From contig JBBTBY010000143.1 in NCBI GenBank assembly GCA_038043445.1, positions 1 to 39,988 of the forward strand: a stretch of DNA of 39,988 bases, written 5' to 3'. This document shows positions 58 through 21,897 of the stretch, piece by piece. This stretch comes from Spirochaetota bacterium (lineage in GTDB: Bacteria > Spirochaetota > Brachyspiria > Brachyspirales > JACRPF01). The notes beneath the pieces were generated by a model that saw nothing but the letters and a program-made list of their open reading frames with translations, did not search any database and was not told the DNA's origin. Position numbers and translations under genes: made by a program. How positions within the stretch are numbered: position 1 is the stretch's first letter; the number at the start of each line of letters is the position of its first letter.

Positions 58-960
58 CTACGACCCGGGAGCGGAGGCGGTAAGTGTTTCGAAACCCGCG
101 ATGATATCGAGGAGCTCGGAGGTGATCGCTTCCTGACGGACAGCATTGTATCGCCCCCGCAGTTCATCGAGGTGTTCATCGACGTGCTTTTCCGCCGCCT
201 GCATGGCCATGAGTCGTGCGGCGTTCTCGCCTGCGAGCGAATCGACGAAGGCGCGAAAGAGCGAAGCATAGAGGTGATGCCGGATCGCTTCGCGCAGTAG
301 CATATGCGTGTCGCCGGCGATGGCCGGTATGCTCTTCGATCTCCATTTCCTGCCGCGCAAAGAAAGGAGATATTCGGGGTCGATGGGGAGCAGCGTTCGC
401 ATGTGCGAGGCATAGGCGAGCTCGCCGACCGGTCGATTATGGAAAAGCAGAACGTTTTGAATTCCCCCGTCGTGCAGGCGTTCAAGGAGCAGGATGAAAT
501 CATGCAGTATGGGTGTTATCCCGGTCTGCAATCCTGCGGGGTAGGGTATCGTCTCGGCGATGGGAAACCCATTCCCTTCGATGCGCGGCACGATCTTTTC
601 TCCGATGGTGATCATCAATGAATTCTCCGCACGTATCCCCATGCCGGCCAGCGTACGAACGCAGTACGCCGCGATATCGTCGTTGAATTGACCGCACATG
701 CCGAGGTCGGAGCCGAATAGCACGACGGCCGTTCTTTTTGAGACATCGAATTTCGTGCGGAAATACCGGGTATTGACAGGGAGGAATTTTACGATGACGG
801 ACAGCGCATCTTCGATGGTGCGGGCATGATCGGCGAGCGAATAGAGCGTTCTCTCGTATTGACGCAGGCTCACCGCCGCCATGATCTTCATCGTGCGTAT
901 GACGGATTTCAGCGAATCGGTCGCGCCTATCGTTCTTTGTATCTCTTCAAGCGACGGCAT
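58..960 (-). CDS. atpG: N-type ATPase gamma subunit (AtpG)
   Basis: Central-shaft subunit of the F1 head of a rotary ATPase, 300 residues. The N-terminus (MPSLEEIQRTIGATDSLKSV) and the C-terminal helix (YNAVRQEAITSELLDIIAGF) fit the two long helices of gamma that form the coiled shaft. The middle matches the gamma Rossmann-like domain only loosely, as usual for N-type gamma subunits. It is the last gene of the operon and starts two bases after the atpA stop, so translation is probably coupled to atpA. The family assignment rests on the end motifs and on operon position. The 57 bases downstream to the window edge show no gene or clear terminator. Confidence 0.9.
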   Translation of the reverse strand: MPSLEEIQRTIGATDSLKSVIRTMKIMAAVSLRQYERTLYSLADHARTIEDALSVIVKFLPVNTRYFRTKFDVSKRTAVVLFGSDLGMCGQFNDDIAAYCVRTLAGMGIRAENSLMITIGEKIVPRIEGNGFPIAETIPYPAGLQTGITPILHDFILLLERLHDGGIQNVLLFHNRPVGELAYASHMRTLLPIDPEYLLSLRGRKWRSKSIPAIAGDTHMLLREAIRHHLYASLFRAFVDSLAGENAARLMAMQAAEKHVDEHLDELRGRYNAVRQEAITSELLDIIAGFETLTASAPGS

Positions 961-962
961 AT

Positions 963-2495
963 CTATGCACCGAGGGACGCGACGGCATCGCGCATCTTTG
1001 AGATCATCGTGTCCCTGTCGTCCGGCGAAAGCTTTTTTCCCGACCTGATCGTTTCTGCGATACGACCGAGCTCACCGGTGAGGAGCGCGGTAATGGCGAT
1101 CTTCGCATCGTGTATCTGTTCTACGGCGATGTCGTTGAGTATCCCGCTCGTTACGGCGAGGAGCACGGCTATCTGTTCGGCCACGGGCACCGGTCTGTAT
1201 TGCGGCTGTTTCAGCACTTCGCGTATTCGATGGCCGCGGTCCAGTACGCTTCGTGTCCCTTCGTCAAGACGTGTGCTGAAACGCTCGAACAATTCCAATT
1301 CCTCGAATTGCGAATAGGTGAGCCTCAGATCGCCCGCTACATCGCGATACGCGGGGATCTGCGCCTTGCCGCCGACGCGCGAAACGGATCTGCCAATATC
1401 GATCGGCGGCATTTTTCCTTCCTGGAACAGTTTTGCGGAAAGGTATATCTGACCGTCGGTTATCGATACGAGATTCGTTGGGATGTATGCGGCGATATTC
1501 TGCGACTCGGTCTCGACGATGGGAAGCGCGGTGAGCGATCCGCCGCCTTTTTCTTCGGAAAGGTGCGTTGCGCGTTCAAGGAGGCGTGAATGTATGTAGA
1601 AGATATCGCCGGGGAACGCTTCGCGCGCGGGGGGGCGCCGCAGCAGAAGAGAAAGTTCCCGGTACGAGCGGGCGTGCCGCGAGAGATCGTCGTAGATGAT
1701 AAGTGCATCGCGTCCGCTCTCCATGAAATATTCGGCTATCGATGTCGCCGCGTACGGCGCAATGAAATTCATTCCCGGGCTGTCATCCCCGGAAGCGACT
1801 ACGACTATCGTATACCCCATCGCGCCATGTTTCTTGAGATCGGCTATGACCTTCGCCGTCGCCGAGTTCTGCTGACCGATGGCGCAATAGACGCATATCA
1901 TATCCTTGTCGCGCTGATTGATTATGGTGTCCACCGCAATGGCCGTCTTACCGATCTGCCTGTCGCTCACGATGAGCTCGCGCTGGCCCCTGCCGATAGG
2001 TATCAACGCGTCAACGGCGATGATGCCCGTTTGCAGCGGGACGTTCACCGGCGCACGGTCCATGATAGCGGGGCAATCGCGTTCTATCGGATAGCGGGTC
2101 GATGCTGCGACAACCCCGCCGTTGTCAAGCGGCGCACCAAGCGGATCGATGACCCTGCCGAGAAGCGCGTCCCCCACCGGCACGTCGATTATCCTTCCCG
2201 TGCGGCGCACTTCCATCCCCGCTTCCACCCGTGCGCTTTGTCCTGTCATGACGATCGACACGGAGTCTCGCTCGAGATTGAACGCGATCCCGAAATTATC
2301 GCCGGGAAAGCGGACCACCTCGTCCGCCCGCACGTTCGGCAAACCGCTTACACGTACTATGCCGTTACCCACCTGCGTCACTACGCCGATCTCCTCGGGG
2401 GAGAACTCGGCGTTGTAATTCCTGAGCCTTTCGTATGCATTCGCGAACATATCCTCGACGATGCCGTCAATATTCGAGCCTGTTTTCTCGTCCAT
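963..2495 (-). CDS. atpA: N-type ATPase alpha subunit (AtpA)
   Basis: Non-catalytic nucleotide-binding subunit of the F1 hexamer, 510 residues, close to the usual length. The N-terminal beta-barrel is followed by the nucleotide-binding domain with the P-loop at residues 177-184, which reads SDRQIGKT where the usual alpha motif is GDRQTGKT. The arginine-finger segment [10 protein letters not shown] lies near residue 370. Walker B residues are in [10 protein letters not shown]. The start ATG sits three bases after the atpF stop. The two P-loop substitutions are visible in the sequence; their effect is unknown, and the site is regulatory and not catalytic in the family. Confidence 0.95.
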
Positions 2496-2498
2496 TGT

Positions 2499-3278
2499 TT
2501 ACCTTAATCCGCGATCCGCGGTCGATGCGCTGTTTGCCGGGAAAAGATCCCGTTCGATGCCCGAGACGAATGCGTCGATGCTCCAGGATATCGTATGCGC
2601 ACCGGCGATAAGCGCTATCCCATAGAGGTCTTTCGCCCCGCTTTCAAAACGTATGGCACCGGAATACCCCAAGGCAGCTGCAACGGCATCGGATATCGTT
2701 CGTTGTACAGCGGGTGTGACGGGGAATGTGCTTCGGATAATGGGTGACGCGCCCGGCGCGCGCAATGCCTCGGTGAGGCGCGTACGTTCGCTTTCCGCGA
2801 GGGATCTCACCTTGCCGGCGAATTTCAATGCGATCCGTTCTTCCAGCGATTCGTCGGCGAGATCGGTCACGGTCTTGTTCGCCAGCGCATAGATGAAGTC
2901 CCTGCCCTTTGCCTTGAGGGCGCTGATGAATTTCTCCTCCTGCGCTGCCTGTATCGACTGCAGCTGCTCGCGGTGAGATCGGATCGCTTCCTCAGCATCC
3001 TGCATGAGCCGTTCCCTGAGCGAACTCGCTTCCGCGCGCGCGCCTGCGAGCATCGCCTCGCGTTCATCGGCGATGGATTGCAATGCAGACGCATGCTTCG
3101 CCTTAAGCGCATCGGCTTCCGCCATTTTTCTGTCTGCGCTCTCGATAGTCGATCGAATCCGCGCATCACGCTCGTCCATCGCCTGTTTCACGCGCCCGAA
3201 AAGGAATTTGTAGAGGAGGAAGAGCAGTACGAGGAAGTTGACTATCTGCGCTATGAACGTGAAAAGGTCTATCTCCAT
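2499..3278 (-). CDS. atpF: N-type ATPase b subunit with delta-like C-terminus (AtpF)
   Basis: Peripheral-stalk subunit, 259 residues. One N-terminal membrane helix (about residues 8-30, IVNFLVLLFLLYKFLFG) leads into a long charged helix rich in Ala, Glu, Arg and Lys to about residue 135, typical of subunit b. The last 90 or so residues (FPVTPAVQRTISDAV, then a GIALIAGAHTISWSID segment) resemble the C-terminal part of subunit delta. No separate atpH is present in the operon. N-type operons are known to lack atpH and to carry an enlarged AtpF, so this protein probably does both jobs. ATG starts three bases after the atpE stop, with a GGGGAAA ribosome site. Confidence 0.88.
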   Translation of the reverse strand: MEIDLFTFIAQIVNFLVLLFLLYKFLFGRVKQAMDERDARIRSTIESADRKMAEADALKAKHASALQSIADEREAMLAGARAEASSLRERLMQDAEEAIRSHREQLQSIQAAQEEKFISALKAKGRDFIYALANKTVTDLADESLEERIALKFAGKVRSLAESERTRLTEALRAPGASPIIRSTFPVTPAVQRTISDAVAAALGYSGAIRFESGAKDLYGIALIAGAHTISWSIDAFVSGIERDLFPANSASTADRGLR

Positions 3279-3281
3279 GTT

Positions 3282-3560
3282 CTATTTCCCCGCTTGCGAT
3301 ACGAAATAATTCCAGAACGGGTTGGTAAAAATGAGCACGAACGCTATCACAAGACAATAGATAGCGAGCGACTCTATCATGGCGAGCCCGACGAACAGGT
3401 TCCTGCTTATGGTAGGGGCTGCGTCCGGCTGCTGAGCGATAGCCTCGACCGCTCGTGCGACCGATATGCCCTCCCCGATGGCCGGACCGATGATGCCGAG
3501 GGATATGCATGTCCCGGCGGTAATGATCGAGACGACTGCGATGAATGTAAGACTGTCCAT
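3282..3560 (-). CDS. atpE: N-type ATPase c subunit (AtpE)
   Basis: Proteolipid that forms the ion-carrying rotor ring, 92 residues, two membrane helices. I chose the ATG at 3560 because TAAGGAG lies just upstream and the protein then begins MDSLTFIAVV; the open frame extends further 5' but runs into atpB. Helix 1 holds GPAIGEG with Glu30; helix 2 holds MIESLAIY with Glu63, Ser64 and Tyr68. Sodium-type rings usually have Gln at the position of Glu30 and Thr after the Glu-Ser pair; here those are Glu and Leu. So two carboxylates per subunit are seen. The ion used cannot be fixed from sequence: N-ATPases were first predicted to use sodium, but the Burkholderia ring was measured as proton specific. 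Confidence 0.95.
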   Translation of the reverse strand: MDSLTFIAVVSIITAGTCISLGIIGPAIGEGISVARAVEAIAQQPDAAPTISRNLFVGLAMIESLAIYCLVIAFVLIFTNPFWNYFVSQAGK

Positions 3561-3570
3561 GGAATGCTCC

Positions 3571-4275
3571 TTATGTTGTTGAGATTGAAATGCTGTTCTG
3601 CCCGCGCTCCGTATGCACTGTCGCGGCACTCCCGATGAATACCGTCGCCAGAATAAAGAAAATATACGCCTGCACGATGCCGATGAGCAGGCCCAGAAGA
3701 TGCATGAGCACGGGCACAAAGAACGGCGCTATCAGCAGCAGGATCGCGGCGATAAGCCCTTCGCTCATGATATTTCCGAAGAGACGGATCGAGAGCGCCA
3801 CCGTTCTTGTGAATTCCGTGAGAATGTTGAGCGGGAGCATGACGAAGACGGGTTCGAGGTAGTACTGAAGGTAATCGAAGAACCCCCGCTCCCTGATGCC
3901 GAAGAAGGGCACCGCAGCGAATACGGTACATGCGAGAGCTGCCGTCGTGGACAATGATCCGGTGGGTGCATGGAAGTGCGGGACATAATGCAGGACGTTT
4001 GAGACCAGAATGAAGAGGAAAAGCGTTGCCACATAGGGAAAATAGGGAACGTGCTCCCTCCCGGTGATACCCTTTATCTGATCCTGTATGAGCGATACTA
4101 CGCTTTCAAGGACATGCTGCCGTTTCGATATGTTCGGGCCCAGTGAAAGTTTTCTTGTGACGAGTATTGAAAATCCGATAAGGACAGCCATGACGACCCA
4201 CGTGTACACGATCGTCGCATTGACGGCAATGGCACCGGCCCTGAACATGATGATCTTGTCCGGGTTTATCGTCAT
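3571..4275 (-). CDS. atpB: N-type ATPase a subunit (AtpB)
   Basis: Membrane stator subunit that makes the ion half-channels against the c ring, 234 residues with five to six hydrophobic segments. The essential arginine is Arg164 in the motif LSIRLFGNIMS, the signature of subunit a. The ATG overlaps the atpR stop by four bases (ATGA), so translation is coupled. The gene ends ten bases before atpE. Length and motif order are those of the family; no missing essential residue was noticed. Confidence 0.95.
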   Translation of the reverse strand: MTINPDKIIMFRAGAIAVNATIVYTWVVMAVLIGFSILVTRKLSLGPNISKRQHVLESVVSLIQDQIKGITGREHVPYFPYVATLFLFILVSNVLHYVPHFHAPTGSLSTTAALACTVFAAVPFFGIRERGFFDYLQYYLEPVFVMLPLNILTEFTRTVALSIRLFGNIMSEGLIAAILLLIAPFFVPVLMHLLGLLIGIVQAYIFFILATVFIGSAATVHTERGQNSISISTT

Positions 4276-4601
4276 CGGGGAGGTCCCTCGCCGGGTTTGT
4301 GGGATGTCGGGAAGGAGCGTATCACATTGATGGCGATAAGGCGCATGATCGCGAAGCCGATAACGCTGACCGCGAGCCTGTCGAATCGCCCCCCGAGTGA
4401 ACAGAGGAAAAATGACGCCCCGCAGAGAAATATTCTGAAAAAGAAACCGACAAACGCCAGCAGCGATGGCGCCGCATCGCGGACTATTTTCCCTACCGAT
4501 AAGTGAAGGAGCCAGAGATAGATGATCGCGGTAGCGCTCCCGGCGATGAACACGACGACATAGAGAACGATCTCAAGGGCGGTAATGCTTTCCGGTATCA
4601 T
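4272..4601 (-). CDS. atpR: N-ATPase membrane protein AtpR
   Basis: Small membrane protein (109 residues) found only in N-type ATPase operons. Three hydrophobic segments are visible; the segment AFVGFFFRIFLCGASFF carries the in-membrane arginine typical of AtpR. The family is thought to act in assembly or ion supply of the c ring, which is a literature hypothesis. I chose ATG 4601 (MIPESITALE) because GGAAGG lies nine bases upstream. An upstream in-frame ATG at 4664 would overlap atpQ by 29 bases and add a charged, unfamily-like leader. It sits between atpQ and atpB exactly as in the canonical N-type order. Confidence 0.85.
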   Translation of the reverse strand: MIPESITALEIVLYVVVFIAGSATAIIYLWLLHLSVGKIVRDAAPSLLAFVGFFFRIFLCGASFFLCSLGGRFDRLAVSVIGFAIMRLIAINVIRSFPTSHKPGEGPPR

Positions 4602-4635
4602 ACACGGCATCCTTCCATCGCGGCGGCACGATGCA

Positions 4636-4931
4636 TCATTTTCCATCCTTCTTTTCGACGACACGTTTCATATGCCGCCACGCGTTACAACAGCCAAGCG
4701 CAAATCCGGTGAGCATGAGGGTGAGTGCGAACGGAAATTTCGCGGGGAATGAGGCATCGAGCCAGGACCCGAGTGCGATGCCGAGCAGCGGCGGAACGAT
4801 CACTGACCAGCCGATCAGTCCCGCCGTTCGAAGCCAGAGGAGATTATCCGTATTGCCGCTGTGCGTCCCCCCGCCGCCTGCCGCATCGATGCGCTTGAGG
4901 AATCGCGCCTGATATCCGCGCTTTGTGTCCT

Positions 4932-4935
<4 letters not shown>
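4636..4935 (-). CDS. atpQ: N-ATPase AtpQ (AtpI-like) membrane protein
   Basis: Protein of 99 residues with a charged N-terminus and two hydrophobic helices (about 30-55 and 60-82), followed by a basic tail. This is the layout of AtpI/AtpQ proteins, small assembly or magnesium-handling partners of rotary ATPases. The helix pair around GWSVIVPPLLGIALGSWLD fits this family. The ATG overlaps the end of atpC by four bases. Position after atpC and before atpR is the diagnostic N-type arrangement, and the call relies on this as much as on sequence. Confidence 0.82.
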
Positions 4936-6709
<1,774 letters not shown>

Positions 6710-6745
6710 TTACTGCTCGGTTTGGAACGCGATAAGACTGGATAC

Positions 6746-6774
6746 AATATACTTTTTATGAAAATCAATGTCAA
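6746..6774 (-). promoter_or_regulatory. sigma70-type promoter for the N-ATPase operon
   Basis: On the minus strand, -35 TTGACA (6774-6769) and -10 TATATT (6751-6746) are separated by exactly 17 bases. The TGA inside the -35 is the stop codon of the upstream ctaB fusion gene. Expected start is near 6739, about 42 bases before the atpD ATG. The hexamers are read directly; activity is inferred. Confidence 0.7.
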
Positions 6775-8189
6775 TACGCTGAAAGAACAGCGAGCACCTC
6801 GTCATCGGTGATCTGCCTGAAATCGTCATAAAAACTTCCTACAGCGCGAAATATCGTCGGGGCACAGAGACAGAGCACCTCATCGCAAACGGCGGCCACT
6901 TTTCCGATCGCTTCAGTGGAAGCGACCGGGACCGCGCATATGAGCCGTTTTGGCTTTTCACGGGCTATCGATTCAAGCGCGAGCTGCATGGTAGCCCCGG
7001 TGGCAAGTCCGTCATCGATGACTATGACGATGGTGTCGCGTAACGGCACCCGCGGGATTATTTTCCGATAGCGCGCCCCCTGGTGGACCAACTCCTCATG
7101 TTTTGCCTTCTTTTCGATTTCTATGTGCCGCGTGTCGATCTGTGCGGCGATGGACGCATCGATGATCGCCTGCCCGTTCTCCGCGATGGCGCCGATCGCG
7201 AACTCGGGGTTTCCGGGAAGACCAAGTTTATGGGTAAGCACGATGTCCAATCGGGCTTTCAGCAGTTTTGCTGTTTCGGCGGCTATCGCCATGCCGCCCC
7301 GGGGTATACCCAGCACCACCGCGCCAACATCGTAATAGCCGGTGAGCTCTCGCGCGAGCAATCTGCCGGCCTCATGCCGGTCAGCGAAACGTTCCGGCCG
7401 ATCGGAAACGATCGATATCGTGCCTGTGCGTCGCATACGAACCCCCTTGCGGTAAAGGATCACGAAGCCGATAGCTGTGGCTGAAACAATGATCGCTGTC
7501 TCGATGAAGGAAGTGATACGAAAGTACGCGAACGGGAGCGCGCTCATCGAAGCGAGTACGGCCCAGAGCACGATGCCGCGTTTGAACCGTGTCTCATCGC
7601 CTGTTCGGTACATCGACGGCATGCCGGCCGATACGTATTCAGCCCCGTATTTCAAAAGCAGTATATGGAAATGGGGGATCTGCCAGAGGAACATGAAAAG
7701 CGCTATCGATAGAACAGCGGGGTCAGTCAGCGATCCCCCTGCCGCCGTCCAGCCGGCCATCGGCGGCAGAGCACCGGTGAACGCACCGATGAATATCGCA
7801 TATTTCGTCCTATGCTTCAACGGCGTGTACATACCGTTGTACCAGACGAATGTAACAGCGCCGATGATCGCGCTCACTGGTGCGGTAAGGAAATAAAGCG
7901 AAGCGAGCCCCGCCGATCCGAGAACGATGACTATCATCAGCACACCCCATACCGGCATCGTTCCCTTCGGGAGCGGCCTGTTCTTCGTCCGCGGCATGCG
8001 GCCATCGAGATCGCGCTCCTGGATTTGATTGAGCGCCGACGCTGACGCGGCGAGGAGCGCAATACCGATGAAAATAAAAATACTTTTCGCAGTTATTTCA
8101 CGGGTGCAGAGAAAACAGCCCGCGAATGCCGAAGCTGCAACGGCAAGCGATATGGTAGCGCGCGTGAGGGAGAACAATGCGGACATCAT
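6771..8189 (-). CDS. ctaB: heme O synthase (CtaB/CyoE)-phosphoribosyltransferase fusion
   Basis: Fusion of 472 residues. Residues 1-247 are a UbiA-type protoheme IX farnesyltransferase: NQIQERDLDGRMPRTKNRPL at 54-73 is the first Asp-rich site, YTPLKHRT follows at 121-128, and FLWQIPHFH is at 167-175. I count eight membrane helices; CtaB proteins normally have nine. Residues about 262-472 are a complete phosphoribosyltransferase with LGIPRGG, HKLGLPGNPEFAIGA and the PRPP loop IVIVIDDGLATGAT at 387-400. CtaB makes heme O for the neighbouring oxidase. The role of the second domain is unknown. The ATG overlaps the ctaC stop (ATGA). An in-frame ATG at 7436 with AGGGGG just upstream could also yield the second domain alone. 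No frameshift or stop separates the domains. Confidence 0.88.
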   Translation of the reverse strand: MMSALFSLTRATISLAVAASAFAGCFLCTREITAKSIFIFIGIALLAASASALNQIQERDLDGRMPRTKNRPLPKGTMPVWGVLMIVIVLGSAGLASLYFLTAPVSAIIGAVTFVWYNGMYTPLKHRTKYAIFIGAFTGALPPMAGWTAAGGSLTDPAVLSIALFMFLWQIPHFHILLLKYGAEYVSAGMPSMYRTGDETRFKRGIVLWAVLASMSALPFAYFRITSFIETAIIVSATAIGFVILYRKGVRMRRTGTISIVSDRPERFADRHEAGRLLARELTGYYDVGAVVLGIPRGGMAIAAETAKLLKARLDIVLTHKLGLPGNPEFAIGAIAENGQAIIDASIAAQIDTRHIEIEKKAKHEELVHQGARYRKIIPRVPLRDTIVIVIDDGLATGATMQLALESIAREKPKRLICAVPVASTEAIGKVAAVCDEVLCLCAPTIFRAVGSFYDDFRQITDDEVLAVLSAY

Positions 8190-9103
8190 TTGATCGTCTT
8201 AAGATAGTTTACTATCTCGTCGACCTCCCTGTCGGAAAGAACGTCCCTGCCGGACGGCATCGTGTTGGGGAATCCATCGGCAACATCGGCCCCGGGCGTT
8301 ATGATCGAAGATCGGATATAGTCGGCATCGGCGAGTATCTTTTTCGTACGCCCGGCGCTTCGCACCGTCACCGTGGAGCCGTAGAAGCCCCTGAACGTGG
8401 GGCCGACCATGGCGGCACCGTCGATGGAATGACAGGATATGCATCCGCGCTCGAAAAGAAGCGATTGCCCTTTCGGCATGGCAAGATCGCGCATCGTGCC
8501 GTCGAGCGAAACGTTTTTTCCCGAAAGCCATGCATCGAATTTTTCCGACGGTACGGCGATCAGTTTTGCCAGCATCGCCGAATGCTTTTGACCGCAGTAC
8601 TGCGAACAGAGGATATAATTATTCCCGGGGGCAGTGGCATTGAACCACACCTCGGTCTTTATCCCGGGCACCGCATCCTGCTGTAAGCGATAGGCCGGCA
8701 CGTAAAATCCGTGTATCACATCGGCAGCAATGAGCTCGCACCGAACATTCCTGCCGACCGGTACGATGAGATCGGGGCTTTTTTTTCCGTTCTCATATTC
8801 GAAAAGCCACGTCCATTGCCGGGCATGGACTTTCACGCGCATCGAGCCTTTCGGCGTTTCACGGAGAAAGGTGAAGCCCGTCAAGCCATAGATGAACATG
8901 GTGGTGGCAAGAAGCGCCGGCAAGAGCGTCCATGCGAATTCGAGGAGCGGATTGGGCGAAACCTCGCAGGGGACGGGGTTGCGCGATCGCCGATACCGTA
9001 CGGCGAAATATATCATGAAGAACACGATGAGAAAAAAGAGGAGGGCACAGAAGACGAGTATGTATATCAGTGCGCCGTCGACGACGGCCGTGGATGTTGC
9101 CAT
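8186..9103 (-). CDS. ctaC: caa3-type cytochrome c oxidase subunit II with fused cytochrome c
   Basis: Electron-entry subunit, 305 residues. Two N-terminal membrane helices (about 10-35 and 55-76) anchor a cupredoxin domain with the CuA ligands His131, Cys166, Cys170, His174 and Met177. The loop reads CSQYCGQKHSAM, so Gln168 replaces the usual Glu. A cytochrome c domain follows, with CISCH at 221-225 and likely Met282 (NTMPSG) as axial ligand. The fused cytochrome defines a caa3 enzyme. No lipobox or cleavable signal is obvious. AAGGAGG lies nine bases before the ATG. It is followed directly by the ctaB fusion. Confidence 0.95.
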   Translation of the reverse strand: MATSTAVVDGALIYILVFCALLFFLIVFFMIYFAVRYRRSRNPVPCEVSPNPLLEFAWTLLPALLATTMFIYGLTGFTFLRETPKGSMRVKVHARQWTWLFEYENGKKSPDLIVPVGRNVRCELIAADVIHGFYVPAYRLQQDAVPGIKTEVWFNATAPGNNYILCSQYCGQKHSAMLAKLIAVPSEKFDAWLSGKNVSLDGTMRDLAMPKGQSLLFERGCISCHSIDGAAMVGPTFRGFYGSTVTVRSAGRTKKILADADYIRSSIITPGADVADGFPNTMPSGRDVLSDREVDEIVNYLKTIK

Positions 9104-9117
9104 GCGTTCGCCCCTCC

Positions 9118-9417
9118 TTACCGGGTTAGAATGTCGGAAAACGTGAGTCCGATGAATATCGTAAGTGTTATAATGGAGATCGGGATTATCAGTCGTATCA
9201 CGAGCCGACCCTCATGCCGCAGGTGCATGAAGTAGAGCAGGACGAACGTGGCTTTTGTCGCCGCTATCGCAAGGCAGACGATTATCGCGACCTTCCCCAA
9301 ATGAAGACTTGCCGCCGCCACGGTCACAACGGTGAGGATGAGGAGGGCGGCCCACACTGCGCTGTACACGATCAATTTAGATGCCATATCAGTATCCTGC
9401 TTCATCGCTTCATTCAT
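9118..9417 (-). CDS. ctaF: caa3-type cytochrome c oxidase subunit IV
   Basis: Small subunit of 99 residues with three membrane helices (about 14-37, 40-62 and 72-95). The segment KATFVLLYFMHLRHEGRL is typical of the prokaryotic subunit IV family. It stabilises the oxidase core and is not catalytic. The ATG overlaps the ctaE stop by four bases, and the gene ends 14 bases before ctaC. The order CtaD-CtaE-CtaF-CtaC differs from Bacillus, where ctaC comes first. Confidence 0.88.
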   Translation of the reverse strand: MNEAMKQDTDMASKLIVYSAVWAALLILTVVTVAAASLHLGKVAIIVCLAIAATKATFVLLYFMHLRHEGRLVIRLIIPISIITLTIFIGLTFSDILTR

Positions 9418-10010
9418 GTTAACAGATAAAATAACGGGAAAAGAAATATCCAGATAATATCAACCAGATGCCAATAGAGCCCCGCGTTCTCGTGAATGAC
9501 GAAACGTTGCGCCGTGATTTTTCCGCGCGCTATCCACACAAGGACGAAGGTAAGCACGCCGATGCCGACAATAACGTGAACGGCATGCAGCCCCGTCATC
9601 ATGTAGTAAAGTCCGAAATACAGTATTTCTCCGCGGGGGCGTGCGAGCAGCGCCGCTGCATTCGGATAAATGCCGTGTTCGAACTTCGCTGTCCACTCGA
9701 TCGCTTTCACAACGAGGAAGCCCAATGCGAAGAGCACCGTTGCGACGAGCAATGCCGCCGCGAGCCTCGTTCTGGCCACTTTCATGAAATGGATCGACAA
9801 TGCAACGGTAAAACTGCTCGTGATGAGAATTACCGTATTGAGCGTGCCGAAAAAACGCGACAATGCAAGCGATGCCGAATGGAACTCGGATGGATTCTTG
9901 AGGCGATATATCGAGTAGAGAAGGAACAAGCCGCCGAAAAGGAGTATCTCGGTGGCGATGAAAAGCCACATGCCAAGCGCGCCGGAAGAACGCGATCCGT
10001 TCCCGCTCAT
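9414..10010 (-). CDS. ctaE: cytochrome c oxidase subunit III
   Basis: Subunit III, 198 residues with five hydrophobic helices, the short form usual for caa3 and bo3 enzymes. Motifs include LGMWLFIATEILLFGGLF near residues 12-29 and MTGLHAVHVIVGIG near 138-151, then WHLVDIIWIFLFPLFYL at the C-terminus. It is a structural subunit that supports proton pumping. It overlaps ctaD upstream (ATGA) and ctaF downstream, so the four oxidase genes are probably translated as a coupled set. Confidence 0.93.
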   Translation of the reverse strand: MSGNGSRSSGALGMWLFIATEILLFGGLFLLYSIYRLKNPSEFHSASLALSRFFGTLNTVILITSSFTVALSIHFMKVARTRLAAALLVATVLFALGFLVVKAIEWTAKFEHGIYPNAAALLARPRGEILYFGLYYMMTGLHAVHVIVGIGVLTFVLVWIARGKITAQRFVIHENAGLYWHLVDIIWIFLFPLFYLLT

Positions 10011-11629
10011 GGGTTTTGTCCTTTATTCCCGAAATCGTACGGGCCCTTCGTTATCGCCGGTACTTCTTCAAAATTCTCCGACGGCGGGGGCGAGGGGATG
10101 GTCCATTCGAGCGTTGCGCCGCCCCACGGATTCGAGGGCGCCTTCGGTCCGGTGAACGCACCGCGTATGAGGTTCGCCGCCATGAGAAAAAGGCCGACGA
10201 TCATGATGAAAGATCCGATAGTGGCCAGCTGATGCATATCCTGATACTGCGGAAGATAATCGTAGAATCGCCGCGGCATGCCCTGCCAGCCGAGAATGAG
10301 CATGGGAAAGTAGAAAATGTTGAAACCGACGAAGAGTATGAGCCAGGCAACGACGGAGAACCGTTTATCATACATCCTTCCGGTCATCTTCGGGAGCCAG
10401 TAGTGGAATGCGGCGAAGAGACCGAACCCCATGCCGCCGAATATCACATAATGAAAATGACCGACGACGAAGTAGGTATTGTGCAGCTGCACGTTCGCCG
10501 AAAGCGCCCCGAGGAACAGCCCGGTAAGCCCGCCTATGGAGAACAGAAAAATGAACGACAGCGCATAGAGGAACGGGGGTTCGAGCTGTATCGATCCTTT
10601 GTACATGGTCGCGAGCCAGTTGAACACTTTTATCGCGCTCGGCACGGCGACGATGAACGTAAGGAATGAAAAGATGATGCCCGCGGTGTTGCTCTGCCCG
10701 CTCACGAACATGTGATGCCCCCACACAAGGGAGCCTACGCTCGCGATGGCAATGCTTGAGAACGCGATCATCTTGTAGCCGTAGATGTTCTTTCTGGAGA
10801 ACACCGGGAAAATATCGGAGATAACGCCCATGGCGGGGAGTATCATGATATACACCGCGGGGTGCGAGTATATCCAGAAAAGGTGCTGATAGAGGAGCGG
10901 GTCGCCCCCCTTGGACGGATCGAAGACGCCGATGCCGAACAATCGCTCCATGATGACGAGAAGCATAGTGATACCAATGACCGGTGTCGCCAGTATCTGC
11001 ACCCAGGCGGTCGCGTAGAAACCCCACACCGAGAGCGGCATGCGGAAGAATTTCATCCCCGGTGCGCGCAATTGATGCACGGTAGTGACGATATTGATGC
11101 CTGTAAGTATCGAAGACATGCCGAGAATGAACACGGCGAACACGGCGAGGGGCACATTCACCGTGGTCTTGATGCTGAACGGCACGTAGAATGTCCATCC
11201 GGTATCGACAGCGCCGCCGCCGAAGAACACAGAAACGAAGGCAAGTATCGCGCCGGCCATATAGAGATACCAGGTGAAGAGATTGAGCCGCGGGAACGCC
11301 ATGTCCCGGGCGCCGATAAGTATCGGCAGGAAGAAATTCCCGAAAATGGTCGGCACGGCGGGAATGACAACGAGGAATATCTGAATGATGCCGTGCAGCG
11401 TGAACATCGCGTTATACTGCTGCGCGGTCATAATTTTATGCCCGGGGACCATGTTGATGCGCATGAGCACGCCGAGGAATACGGCAAGCGTGAAAAAGAA
11501 AAGTATCGCAGTGAGATACAGAATGCCGATGCGCTTATGATCGGTGGAGGTGATCCATCCGAGCACGCCGGTGTATTTTCCCGTGTCGGCGAAGTAGGGG
11601 AGTTCCGCTGTAGTTCCGTGTTCTGACAT
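10007..11629 (-). CDS. ctaD: cytochrome c oxidase subunit I, A2-like
   Basis: Catalytic subunit (540 residues) that reduces oxygen to water at the heme a3-CuB site and pumps protons. Visible ligands: His79 (heme a), His256 with cross-linked Tyr260, His305 and His306 (CuB), His391 (heme a3) and His393 (heme a). Lys334 of the K channel is in AIKVFNW. The sequence YSHPAVY at 254-260 lacks the D-channel glutamate found as HPEVY in A1 enzymes, and instead has the Tyr-Ser pair of A2 heme-copper oxidases such as the Thermus and Rhodothermus caa3 enzymes. About twelve membrane helices. AAGGA lies nine bases before the ATG. Confidence 0.97.
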   Translation of the reverse strand: MSEHGTTAELPYFADTGKYTGVLGWITSTDHKRIGILYLTAILFFFTLAVFLGVLMRINMVPGHKIMTAQQYNAMFTLHGIIQIFLVVIPAVPTIFGNFFLPILIGARDMAFPRLNLFTWYLYMAGAILAFVSVFFGGGAVDTGWTFYVPFSIKTTVNVPLAVFAVFILGMSSILTGINIVTTVHQLRAPGMKFFRMPLSVWGFYATAWVQILATPVIGITMLLVIMERLFGIGVFDPSKGGDPLLYQHLFWIYSHPAVYIMILPAMGVISDIFPVFSRKNIYGYKMIAFSSIAIASVGSLVWGHHMFVSGQSNTAGIIFSFLTFIVAVPSAIKVFNWLATMYKGSIQLEPPFLYALSFIFLFSIGGLTGLFLGALSANVQLHNTYFVVGHFHYVIFGGMGFGLFAAFHYWLPKMTGRMYDKRFSVVAWLILFVGFNIFYFPMLILGWQGMPRRFYDYLPQYQDMHQLATIGSFIMIVGLFLMAANLIRGAFTGPKAPSNPWGGATLEWTIPSPPPSENFEEVPAITKGPYDFGNKGQNP

Positions 11630-11635
11630 GAATGA

Positions 11636-12442
11636 TTATCCTTTGTTGCGTCGACGTCGCGAGGAGATCACGAGATACGCAATGAATATCCCAATGAATA
11701 CGATAATGACAGAGGCGCTTACCCGGAGCAGGTTGAACACATATCGATGGCTCTTCGGGTCATAGCTGAAGCACATGCGCAGTGCGCGCGCTATTGTCGG
11801 CTGTATGGTGCCGGTCCGCGCCTCCATGAGCGACATCGTTATCTCCATGGGCAGATACTCGGTGCCATGTATATAGCGTACGACCTTCCCGGTCGGGGAT
11901 AGGATGATAAGCCCAAGGGGATGATCGAAATCATTCCCGCGGCGGGCGAAGCGAAAACCGGCGGCGTCGGTCACTTGTTTCACGCTTGCAGCCGATCCGA
12001 TAAGGAAATGCCATCGATCTTGCGGGTACGGTTTCTGGATGGCCTCAAATGCGATCGTTCGTATCTTCAATGCATCGGCCGGTTTTTCACGGTCGTCGAT
12101 GGAAATGGTGACCACAGCGGGCTCCGACCCCGGCTTGTCAGCGCACGATCGAAGCGCGCTCGACAACGACGTGACCACCGATAAACATTCATTCCTGCAT
12201 GTGTAGAAAACGAAGCAGAGTATGGTCGGTCCCTGCACCACATCTTTGAGAAGCACCGATCCCCCATATTCGTCGACAAATTTCGTATCAAGGGGGATCG
12301 TCGATCCTTTTTTCTCCTCGATACCTACGATCGGGTCAGGCTCGTTCGTAGCATGCGTTCCGCCATGGGAAAAAAGAGGGGTGATGAAGAGCGACAGCAT
12401 GAGGAGCGAAGCATGCAGGGGAGTGTACTTCGCGGTTTTCAT
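11636..12442 (-). CDS. SCO1/SenC copper chaperone
   Basis: Thioredoxin-fold protein (268 residues) that delivers copper to the CuA site of subunit II. The copper ligands are Cys82 and Cys86 (TCRNEC) and His175 (DHPLG). The N-terminus has a signal-like hydrophobic stretch ending near FSHGG. A second membrane helix at about 238-260 with a basic tail anchors the C-terminus, a known variant among SCO proteins of caa3 operons. It overlaps the upstream gene by four bases and ends six bases before ctaD, which fits a role in building this oxidase. Confidence 0.9.
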   Translation of the reverse strand: MKTAKYTPLHASLLMLSLFITPLFSHGGTHATNEPDPIVGIEEKKGSTIPLDTKFVDEYGGSVLLKDVVQGPTILCFVFYTCRNECLSVVTSLSSALRSCADKPGSEPAVVTISIDDREKPADALKIRTIAFEAIQKPYPQDRWHFLIGSAASVKQVTDAAGFRFARRGNDFDHPLGLIILSPTGKVVRYIHGTEYLPMEITMSLMEARTGTIQPTIARALRMCFSYDPKSHRYVFNLLRVSASVIIVFIGIFIAYLVISSRRRRNKG

Positions 12443-12969
12443 CGTGTCATTCCTCCCGCTGATCCAGCGCGGCCCGGCGCAGCCGTGTTCGTCTGTGCGG
12501 GGATCACTATCGGTGTCTGCTTCGGGACTTTGATCTCAAGCCCCCTGCCGTACACGATCCCGGCCCCAAAATAACCAAGCCCTATCATCGCAACGAACGC
12601 AACAGCATAGAGCACGGTCATCGTGAGCGTATGAAGCTTTATTTCGCTCCCGAGAATAATGCCGGCACCAAGCGCAACAAGTGAAATTGAGGCAAGGGTG
12701 ATCTTGATCTTAATGGGGGTGAACGGGGCGGCATTATAAAAATGTATCCAGTCGAATACGCCGAGGAGTATTGTCGGGAATACGAAAATGAAGGCCAGAA
12801 TTGATGCGTGCCGTGCGGAGAGCACGAGGTTCTTGCGCTTGAAAATGACAGCGACGAGAAAGAATGTCAACGCCCCTACGGTCAGTCCGATCGGCATATG
12901 GGTGATGGGCGAGTGCAGCGGTTCATTGAAGCCTATCGAGGCCAGGAGCTTATACATTTCATCGATCAT
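12439..12969 (-). CDS. DUF2231-like membrane protein
   Basis: Protein of 176 residues with four membrane helices. The segment HSPITHMPIGLTVGALTFF near residues 19-37 resembles the DUF2231 family (His-Phe/Met-Pro-Ile). Histidines in HSPITHMP, and others in later helices, could bind heme, but this is speculation. The C-terminal 35 residues are a low-complexity Pro/Thr/Ala/Gly tail. It is the first gene of the oxidase operon, with AGAGGTGAT before the ATG and a promoter just upstream. Its function is not known; its position suggests a part in oxidase assembly or electron supply. Confidence 0.65.
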   Translation of the reverse strand: MIDEMYKLLASIGFNEPLHSPITHMPIGLTVGALTFFLVAVIFKRKNLVLSARHASILAFIFVFPTILLGVFDWIHFYNAAPFTPIKIKITLASISLVALGAGIILGSEIKLHTLTMTVLYAVAFVAMIGLGYFGAGIVYGRGLEIKVPKQTPIVIPAQTNTAAPGRAGSAGGMTR

Positions 12970-20647: not shown

Positions 20648-21871
20648 TTAACGCAGGGATTCCTTTTTCTCGCCGAGTATCCACTGCTCTGTCGATGCAT
20701 TCCCGCCCGCATCGTAGGTCTTCCAGACACCGTGTTTCATGCCGGTCTTGTACAGTCCTTCTTCGATCGGCTTTCCGTTCGCGCCGTATCTGATGAATTT
20801 GCCGTTGTAGTTCTTTTCGACAAGCTCGCTGAAATTCCTGTCCTCGAACGCGGCGAGGAACTGCACCTCGAAATCCTTTGCTCCGTTCTTATAGAACACA
20901 CAGTGTTTTATGCTTGCGCTCTTGAAGTCCGGCTGCTTATCGAGGGCACCGGTCTCAAGATAGTAATTCCACACGCCCATCTTCTTGCTGCCTTCGTACA
21001 TGCCTTTTGCACGAACTTTGCCGCTGGGGTAGTATTCGGTGAATTCGCCTTCCTTCTTGCCGGCCTTATACGGCCCCTGCATGAAGAGCGATCCATCCTT
21101 GCTGTAGAATTTCCAAGTCCCTTCCTGCTTGCCTTTCACATAATTGCCTTCCGACATGACGCTCCCGTTCGAATAATAGGAGGACGATGCGCCGTCAAGG
21201 ACATTGCTTGCGAACGTGGACCTCTGTGATACGCCCGCGCCGGGATAGTAGAACTCGGAGACGCCGTTGGTAACATTGTCCGCGAAGCGTATCTTTTCAA
21301 GCACGGAGTTGTTCTCATAGCGCAGCCACACGCCGTTTGACATGCCGCGCTCGAAGGTCCCGGAATATGCCATCGTGCCTTTATCGTCGAAGGCCTTGAA
21401 ATCACCCGTTCTCTTGCCGTCCTTATACGTTGTCAGTGAGGAGACGGTCTTTCCATCCGGGTGATACTCTTTCCACAATCCCTGCCGCTCATCAGCACCG
21501 TACTGTCCGTCGATGAGCTTTGAGCCGGTGTCGTAGTAGCGCGTCGTCGGACCTTCCAGTTTATCGCTTTTATAGATGACGATGATGCTCGTTGCGCCGT
21601 TCTCGTGATAGAACGTCCATTTCCCGTTCTTCGTATCGTTCTCGTAGACGCCCTCGGATTCTTTTTTACCGCTCTTGAAAAAGGTGGTTGCGGGGCCGTT
21701 GCGCATCGCATTGCTCATGATGCCCTGTTCTTTTATCTTGCCGTCGTCATATTTTTCCGTATACGGACCATTGACGACCTTCGGCGTCTGTTTGACGCTC
21801 TTCTGGTCGCCGCCGCATGATATGAATACCACGGCGATGCCCGCAAGAAGCAATATCGATAGATGTTTCAT
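20648..21871 (-). CDS. MORN-repeat lipoprotein
   Basis: Protein of 407 residues. A signal peptide ends in the lipobox FISC|GG, so the mature protein is a lipid-anchored cell-envelope protein. The rest is made of many MORN-type repeats of about 20-24 residues (patterns like GKWTFYHENG, GVWNYYLETG, GTWKFYSKDG). Such repeats are common in spirochaete and Bacteroidetes envelope proteins; no enzyme activity can be assigned. ATG 21871 is chosen because GGAGG lies five bases upstream; the open frame could start at a TTG four codons earlier. It has a near-perfect promoter and heads the operon with pyrE and the kinase. Confidence 0.9.
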   Translation of the reverse strand: MKHLSILLLAGIAVVFISCGGDQKSVKQTPKVVNGPYTEKYDDGKIKEQGIMSNAMRNGPATTFFKSGKKESEGVYENDTKNGKWTFYHENGATSIIVIYKSDKLEGPTTRYYDTGSKLIDGQYGADERQGLWKEYHPDGKTVSSLTTYKDGKRTGDFKAFDDKGTMAYSGTFERGMSNGVWLRYENNSVLEKIRFADNVTNGVSEFYYPGAGVSQRSTFASNVLDGASSSYYSNGSVMSEGNYVKGKQEGTWKFYSKDGSLFMQGPYKAGKKEGEFTEYYPSGKVRAKGMYEGSKKMGVWNYYLETGALDKQPDFKSASIKHCVFYKNGAKDFEVQFLAAFEDRNFSELVEKNYNGKFIRYGANGKPIEEGLYKTGMKHGVWKTYDAGGNASTEQWILGEKKESLR

Positions 21872-21897
21872 GACGTCCTCCAAGCAAGAGTGAACGC

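Follow-up and report, generated by a model that had tools for sequence, protein, structure and literature searches.

A heme O synthase without its ninth membrane helix joined in frame to a phosphoribosyltransferase in a bacterial cox operon

One gene in the window (the whole 39,988-nt stretch of DNA analyzed) reads from a heme O synthase (CtaB) straight into a phosphoribosyltransferase (PRTase), and the question is whether this frame encodes a real two-domain protein. We favor, with a probability of approximately 0.6, a real fusion private to this lineage, in which an eight-helix CtaB would still make heme o and would carry a cytoplasmic PRTase, the ancestral activities of the two parts being kept apart.

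The frame runs on the minus strand, as do all window features described here, from the ATG to the stop codon (8189-6771; 472 codons), with zero internal stops. Pfam placed UbiA at residues 21-246 (7e-40) and Pribosyltran at residues 290-454 (2e-14) of the 472-aa protein. Thus, the single uninterrupted frame from CtaB to a full PRTase described in the original prediction was confirmed, with exact coordinates (6771..8189) and with domain models matching both parts. Pfam found no CtaA domain in the protein, which is therefore not a CtaA-CtaB fusion.

The CtaB domain covers residues 1-251 (7437..8189). The heme O synthase model TIGR01473 aligned residues 4-247 with model positions 2-245 of 281, and the C-terminal ~36 positions of the model had no counterpart in the fused protein. 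TIGR01473 was the best-scoring model for this part (173.6 bits over 245 positions), below its equivalog cut-off of 210.3 bits; full-length CtaBs from the operons of two relatives were likewise below the cut-off and scored lower than the eight-helix domain (L013, 171.1 bits; L066, 136.4 bits). The first Asp-rich motif (NQIQERDLD, residues 54-62, 8004..8030), the substrate/Mg site of UbiA proteins, includes N54 and D62, both conserved in comparison with 37 relatives. A linker (residues 252-266, 7392..7436; MRRTGTISIVSDRPE) separates the eighth helix from the region of PRTase homology. The PRTase domain (residues 267-472, 6774..7391) is of the TT1426/1wd5 type: residues 267-469 matched PDB 1wd5, the TT1426 PRTase of Thermus, over nearly the whole of 1wd5 (phmmer, 8e-46; Foldseek TM 0.80, normalized by target). 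Its PRPP-binding loop (DDGLATGAT, residues 392-400, 6990..7016) has D392, D393, G394, A396, T397, G398, and T400 in common with 22 relatives, and the PRTase part differed at 6 of 49 near-invariant positions.

In the alignment, all 37 CtaB relatives extended 28-48 residues past the fusion point, and their tails contained a hydrophobic 17-residue stretch (KD 1.3-2.65, vs. 0.03 at that place in the window protein). The loss of helix 9 relative to a normal CtaB, which had been proposed from the window alone, was thus borne out. Helix 9 was not encoded in any reading frame at the junction: when the GGGGG run there was shifted by one base, the other frames gave 23 or 55 non-membrane residues. A frameshift concealing helix 9 was therefore ruled out, and the truncation of CtaB holds whether or not the frame is correct, the fusion alone depending on it.

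The AlphaFold2 model of the fused protein (mean pLDDT 89.6, pTM 0.66; alignment input, 16 relatives of the two halves) predicted eight membrane helices, as counted in the original prediction, at residues 11-29, 34-57, 80-101, 104-124, 131-149, 157-187, 199-216 (+219-222), and 228-251, followed by the less certain linker (pLDDT 62-72) and a well-formed PRTase. The pTM suggests that the CtaB and PRTase halves have no fixed relative arrangement. When the predicted model was searched with Foldseek, 1wd5 was the top match, followed by the UbiA structures 4tq3, 4od4, and 7bpu. The AfUbiA structure has nine helices, with the N-terminus inside, the C-terminus outside, and both Asp-rich motifs cytoplasmic (PMC4106721). 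Helix 9 of UbiA is loosely packed, lies outside the catalytic bundles, and has no equivalent in related soluble synthases; it also walls the substrate tunnel, and its removal would open the cavity to the bilayer (PMC4106721). Because predictions for UbiA proteins give either eight or nine helices (PMC4106721), the ninth is not essential to the definition of the CtaB family. With eight helices and the published topology, the C-terminus is left on the cytoplasmic side, where the PRTase is expected to lie, and the distribution of charge over the loops fits this expectation (K+R, 14 inside vs. 2 outside). The earlier argument that loss of helix 9 places the C-terminus inside therefore agrees with the AfUbiA structure and the positive-inside count, and we infer the same topology.

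The junction DNA occurred once in the genome, and the composition of the contig was native (GC content 0.555, vs. 0.54-0.56 for the genome, with matching tetranucleotides). A repeat-driven misjoin and a contaminating contig were thus both ruled out. Codon 252 is an in-frame ATG (7434..7436) that could start a separate PRTase of 221 aa. It lies 5 nt downstream of a Shine-Dalgarno-like AAGGGGG (7442..7448; duplex energy -11.7 kcal/mol, computed with a generic bacterial 16S tail and not with that of the host genome). Of the operon's 80 internal in-frame ATGs, this one paired most strongly, near the level of the best true starts, whereas the region holds two further ATGs, neither of them a start, that paired equally well or better. 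With its own ATG and a strong Shine-Dalgarno, a separate PRTase may also be translated from 7436, so the suggestion of a possible start there was credible; on this reading of the sequence, 52-kDa and 24-kDa products are both plausible. As the simplest reading, the ATG is the start of a former PRTase gene that now lies within the fused frame.

The CtaB part kept 25 of the 26 positions that were near-invariant among the 37 relatives, the exception being K10R; N54, D62, M65, R67, T68, R71, and P72 were among those conserved. Decay is therefore not evident. Identity to Bacteroidota CtaBs was 36.5% for the window protein vs. 34.3% for an intact CtaB of the same phylum, and the cox genes showed a similar pattern. 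One CtaB (the fused one) and one COX1 were found in the window genome. No heme A synthase (CtaA) was found in this 97% complete genome in a PF02628 search. With no CtaA found and CtaB encoded beside the sole COX1, heme o is the expected cofactor, and the window oxidase may carry heme o instead of heme a.

The fused gene starts within a 4-nt overlap with cox2 (8186..9103; oxidase subunit II with a fused cytochrome c, profile matches). Upstream are cox4 (9118..9417; prokaryotic subunit IV, PF03626), cox3 (9414..10010; PF00510), cox1 (10007..11629; PF00115 and TIGR02891), a gene for a SCO1/SenC-like copper protein (11636..12442; PF02630, slightly under the curated cut-off), and, as the first gene of the operon, one for a DUF2231-like membrane protein (12439..12969; PF09990, slightly under the curated cut-off). 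Directly after the fused gene, a sigma-70-like promoter (TTGACA-17-TATATT, 11/12; 6746..6774) stands in front of atpD. Because this promoter begins at the stop codon of the fusion and faces the ATP synthase operon, the fused gene looks like the last gene of the cox operon. The ATP synthase operon (58-6697), which comes directly after the cox operon, encodes beta, epsilon, two small membrane proteins, a, c, b, alpha, and gamma; we take its gene order and the 'GEG...MIES' motif of its c subunit to recall sodium-type N-ATPases. Elsewhere in the window, a 411-aa protein with many MORN_2 repeats and a lipoprotein-like N-terminus is encoded at 20648-21883.

Nine loci had the gene order sco-cox1-cox3-cox4-cox2-ctaB, and the ctaB was full-length in each; eight were from Bacteroidota/Chlorobiota (L004, L006, L008, and L010-L014) and one was from the phylum of the window (L066). 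The order was strictly kept between these groups, which suggests transfer of the entire operon. No PRTase gene was found near ctaB within the fetched flanks of the nine operons, and no cox genes were found in the flanks of the PRTase relatives examined. Since all nine operons end in an ordinary ctaB without an adjoining PRTase, a missed stop codon between two ancestral neighbor genes was ruled out; relatives do encode the two proteins separately, but with no PRTase at this site.

Only one further genome of this family was compared (G001, 98% complete); it has an orthologous DUF2231-sco-cox1-cox3-cox4-cox2 operon (L106; G001:C21:195000-212000, operon 6449-11261), with a cox1 that is 78.5% identical. 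This operon has no ctaB; a DUF1801 gene comes after cox2 where ctaB would be. No CtaB was found at the operon or elsewhere in G001, in which the sole good UbiA match was the orthologue of a different prenyltransferase. Thus, G001 apparently has a family A oxidase without a heme O synthase, and CtaB may be dispensable in this bacterial family, which makes the family useful for asking which heme such oxidases use. The PRTase of G001 is a stand-alone gene elsewhere in the genome (L057). Common descent of this gene and the window PRTase was unsupported: the two fell in different parts of the tree, with weak resolution around the window copy.

When the 472-aa protein was used as query against approximately 1,310 genomes and 72,556 plasmids, no further sequence matched across both halves, so the domain pair that the original prediction proposed to look for in related genomes was found in no other genome or plasmid searched. 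The genomes comprised 393 from the phylum of the window, 396 Bacteroidota, 399 Pseudomonadota, 111 from the phylum of Calidithermus, and 18 behind other relatives; a scan of 386 genomes from the G407 phylum, run with a strict cut-off and no positive control, does not count toward the total. No match was found in viral contigs. Long frames with PRTase matches (L087-L092) had no CtaB-like upstream part in any case and were mostly high-GC readthrough; L088 is a PRTase with a C-terminal hydrolase. The large open frames on the CtaBs of G040 and G213 were N-terminal extensions. The sample held under half of the known species and one genome of the window's genus, so that a fusion that is private yet persistent in unsampled relatives is possible; with no second fused genome, persistence through speciation cannot be shown.

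In the reading that we favor, the ancestral operon (DUF2231-sco-cox1-cox3-cox4-cox2-ctaB) would have ended in a normal nine-helix ctaB, and a deletion or an insertion would have fused ctaB, in frame and where helix 8 ends, with the 5′ end of a gene for a TT1426-type PRTase. The join would have removed ctaB helix 9 together with the stop codon, and the PRTase ribosome-binding site and ATG would have been kept inside the new frame. The eight-helix core, with its two four-helix bundles and both Asp-rich sites, would still supply the operon's oxidase with heme o by farnesylating heme b, and the PRTase would be carried in the cytoplasm on a linker of ~15 residues, with a second, soluble PRTase started at 7436. 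The two domains would keep their separate ancestral activities and would have expression and location alone in common. It is possible, although unlikely, that the CtaB part is instead a dead remnant, heme O synthesis being unneeded in the family, ctaB having been cut by a deletion, and the frame running by chance into a PRTase translated from 7436. The same cox operon in G001 without a ctaB there or elsewhere, the absence of a detectable heme A synthase from the window genome, and the strong Shine-Dalgarno at 7436 all fit such a remnant, but 251 codons without a stop or a frameshift, 25 of 26 near-invariant positions intact, and a divergence no faster than that of intact CtaB do not. A very recent truncation would look alike, as it would leave no trace in the sequence. 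An error of sequencing or assembly at the junction, by which a ctaB already without helix 9 would end early and the PRTase would be a separate gene from 7436, seems to us rather improbable. The GGGGG run stands at the junction beside a good ribosome-binding site, a gain or loss of one base there would bring the ctaB frame to a stop 23 or 55 residues on, and the genome is in 178 contigs; however, the assembled frame is exactly open, the junction has no repeat to cause misjoining in a contig of native composition, and an indel would not restore helix 9, so that the truncation holds regardless.

We consider it very improbable that the fused protein is a functionally coupled enzyme, in which the PRTase would sense PRPP or nucleotides, or channel a product, and so control heme O synthesis. 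One chain does hold both the PRPP loop and the CtaB motifs intact, and the topology sets both sites on the cytoplasmic side, but the domain pair did not recur in the genomes and plasmids searched, no PRTase-cox gene neighborhood is conserved, and the substrate of the PRTase is not assigned. We know of no chemical step that connects the two reactions. Hardly any weight, and slightly less again, is given to a bifunctional membrane enzyme in which the PRTase would take the place of CtaB helix 9 and bound PRPP or nucleotide would tune heme O supply, coupling respiration to the nucleotide state. With no recurrence of the pair and no PRTase near the cox genes of relatives, the idea raised in the original prediction that heme maturation might be tied to nucleotide or PRPP metabolism was unsupported. 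The real two-domain protein that it also envisaged stood insofar as the frame is open and the two domains are complete but for helix 9. Such a protein would show that the loss of helix 9 lets a cytoplasmic domain be appended to CtaB.

The window protein has its fold, motifs, near-invariant residues, and position after cox2 in common with Bacteroidota-type CtaB/CyoE of the UbiA superfamily, in which helix 9 is present, whereas the window protein carries a PRTase in its place. The PRTase part has the full length, the fold, and the PRPP loop of TT1426 (1wd5), with ~40% identity; its N-terminus is tethered to a membrane protein, whereas the TT1426-type relatives were seen as stand-alone proteins, except for L088. 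The mycobacterial putative PRTase Rv0571c presumably belongs to the same type as TT1426. TT1426 is a predicted type I phosphoribosyltransferase (PMC2427199), and the function of Rv0571c is listed as uncharacterised (PMC5309233). Decaprenyl-phosphate phosphoribosyltransferase (8j8j), a UbiA-fold membrane enzyme that uses PRPP, matched the CtaB part weakly, and the window protein scored far better as a CtaB than as an enzyme of this type. We take the PRPP site of 8j8j to sit in the UbiA fold, without a soluble PRTase domain. In the literature on heme O synthase fusions, we found CtaA-CtaB alone, in which heme A synthase is fused with heme O synthase (PMC9145763, PMC8239418); the window protein instead pairs a CtaB without helix 9 with a PRTase. 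In both cases CtaB is joined to a second enzyme in one chain, but in CtaA-CtaB the partner catalyzes the step that follows CtaB in its pathway, whereas the partner in the window protein is of an unrelated type.
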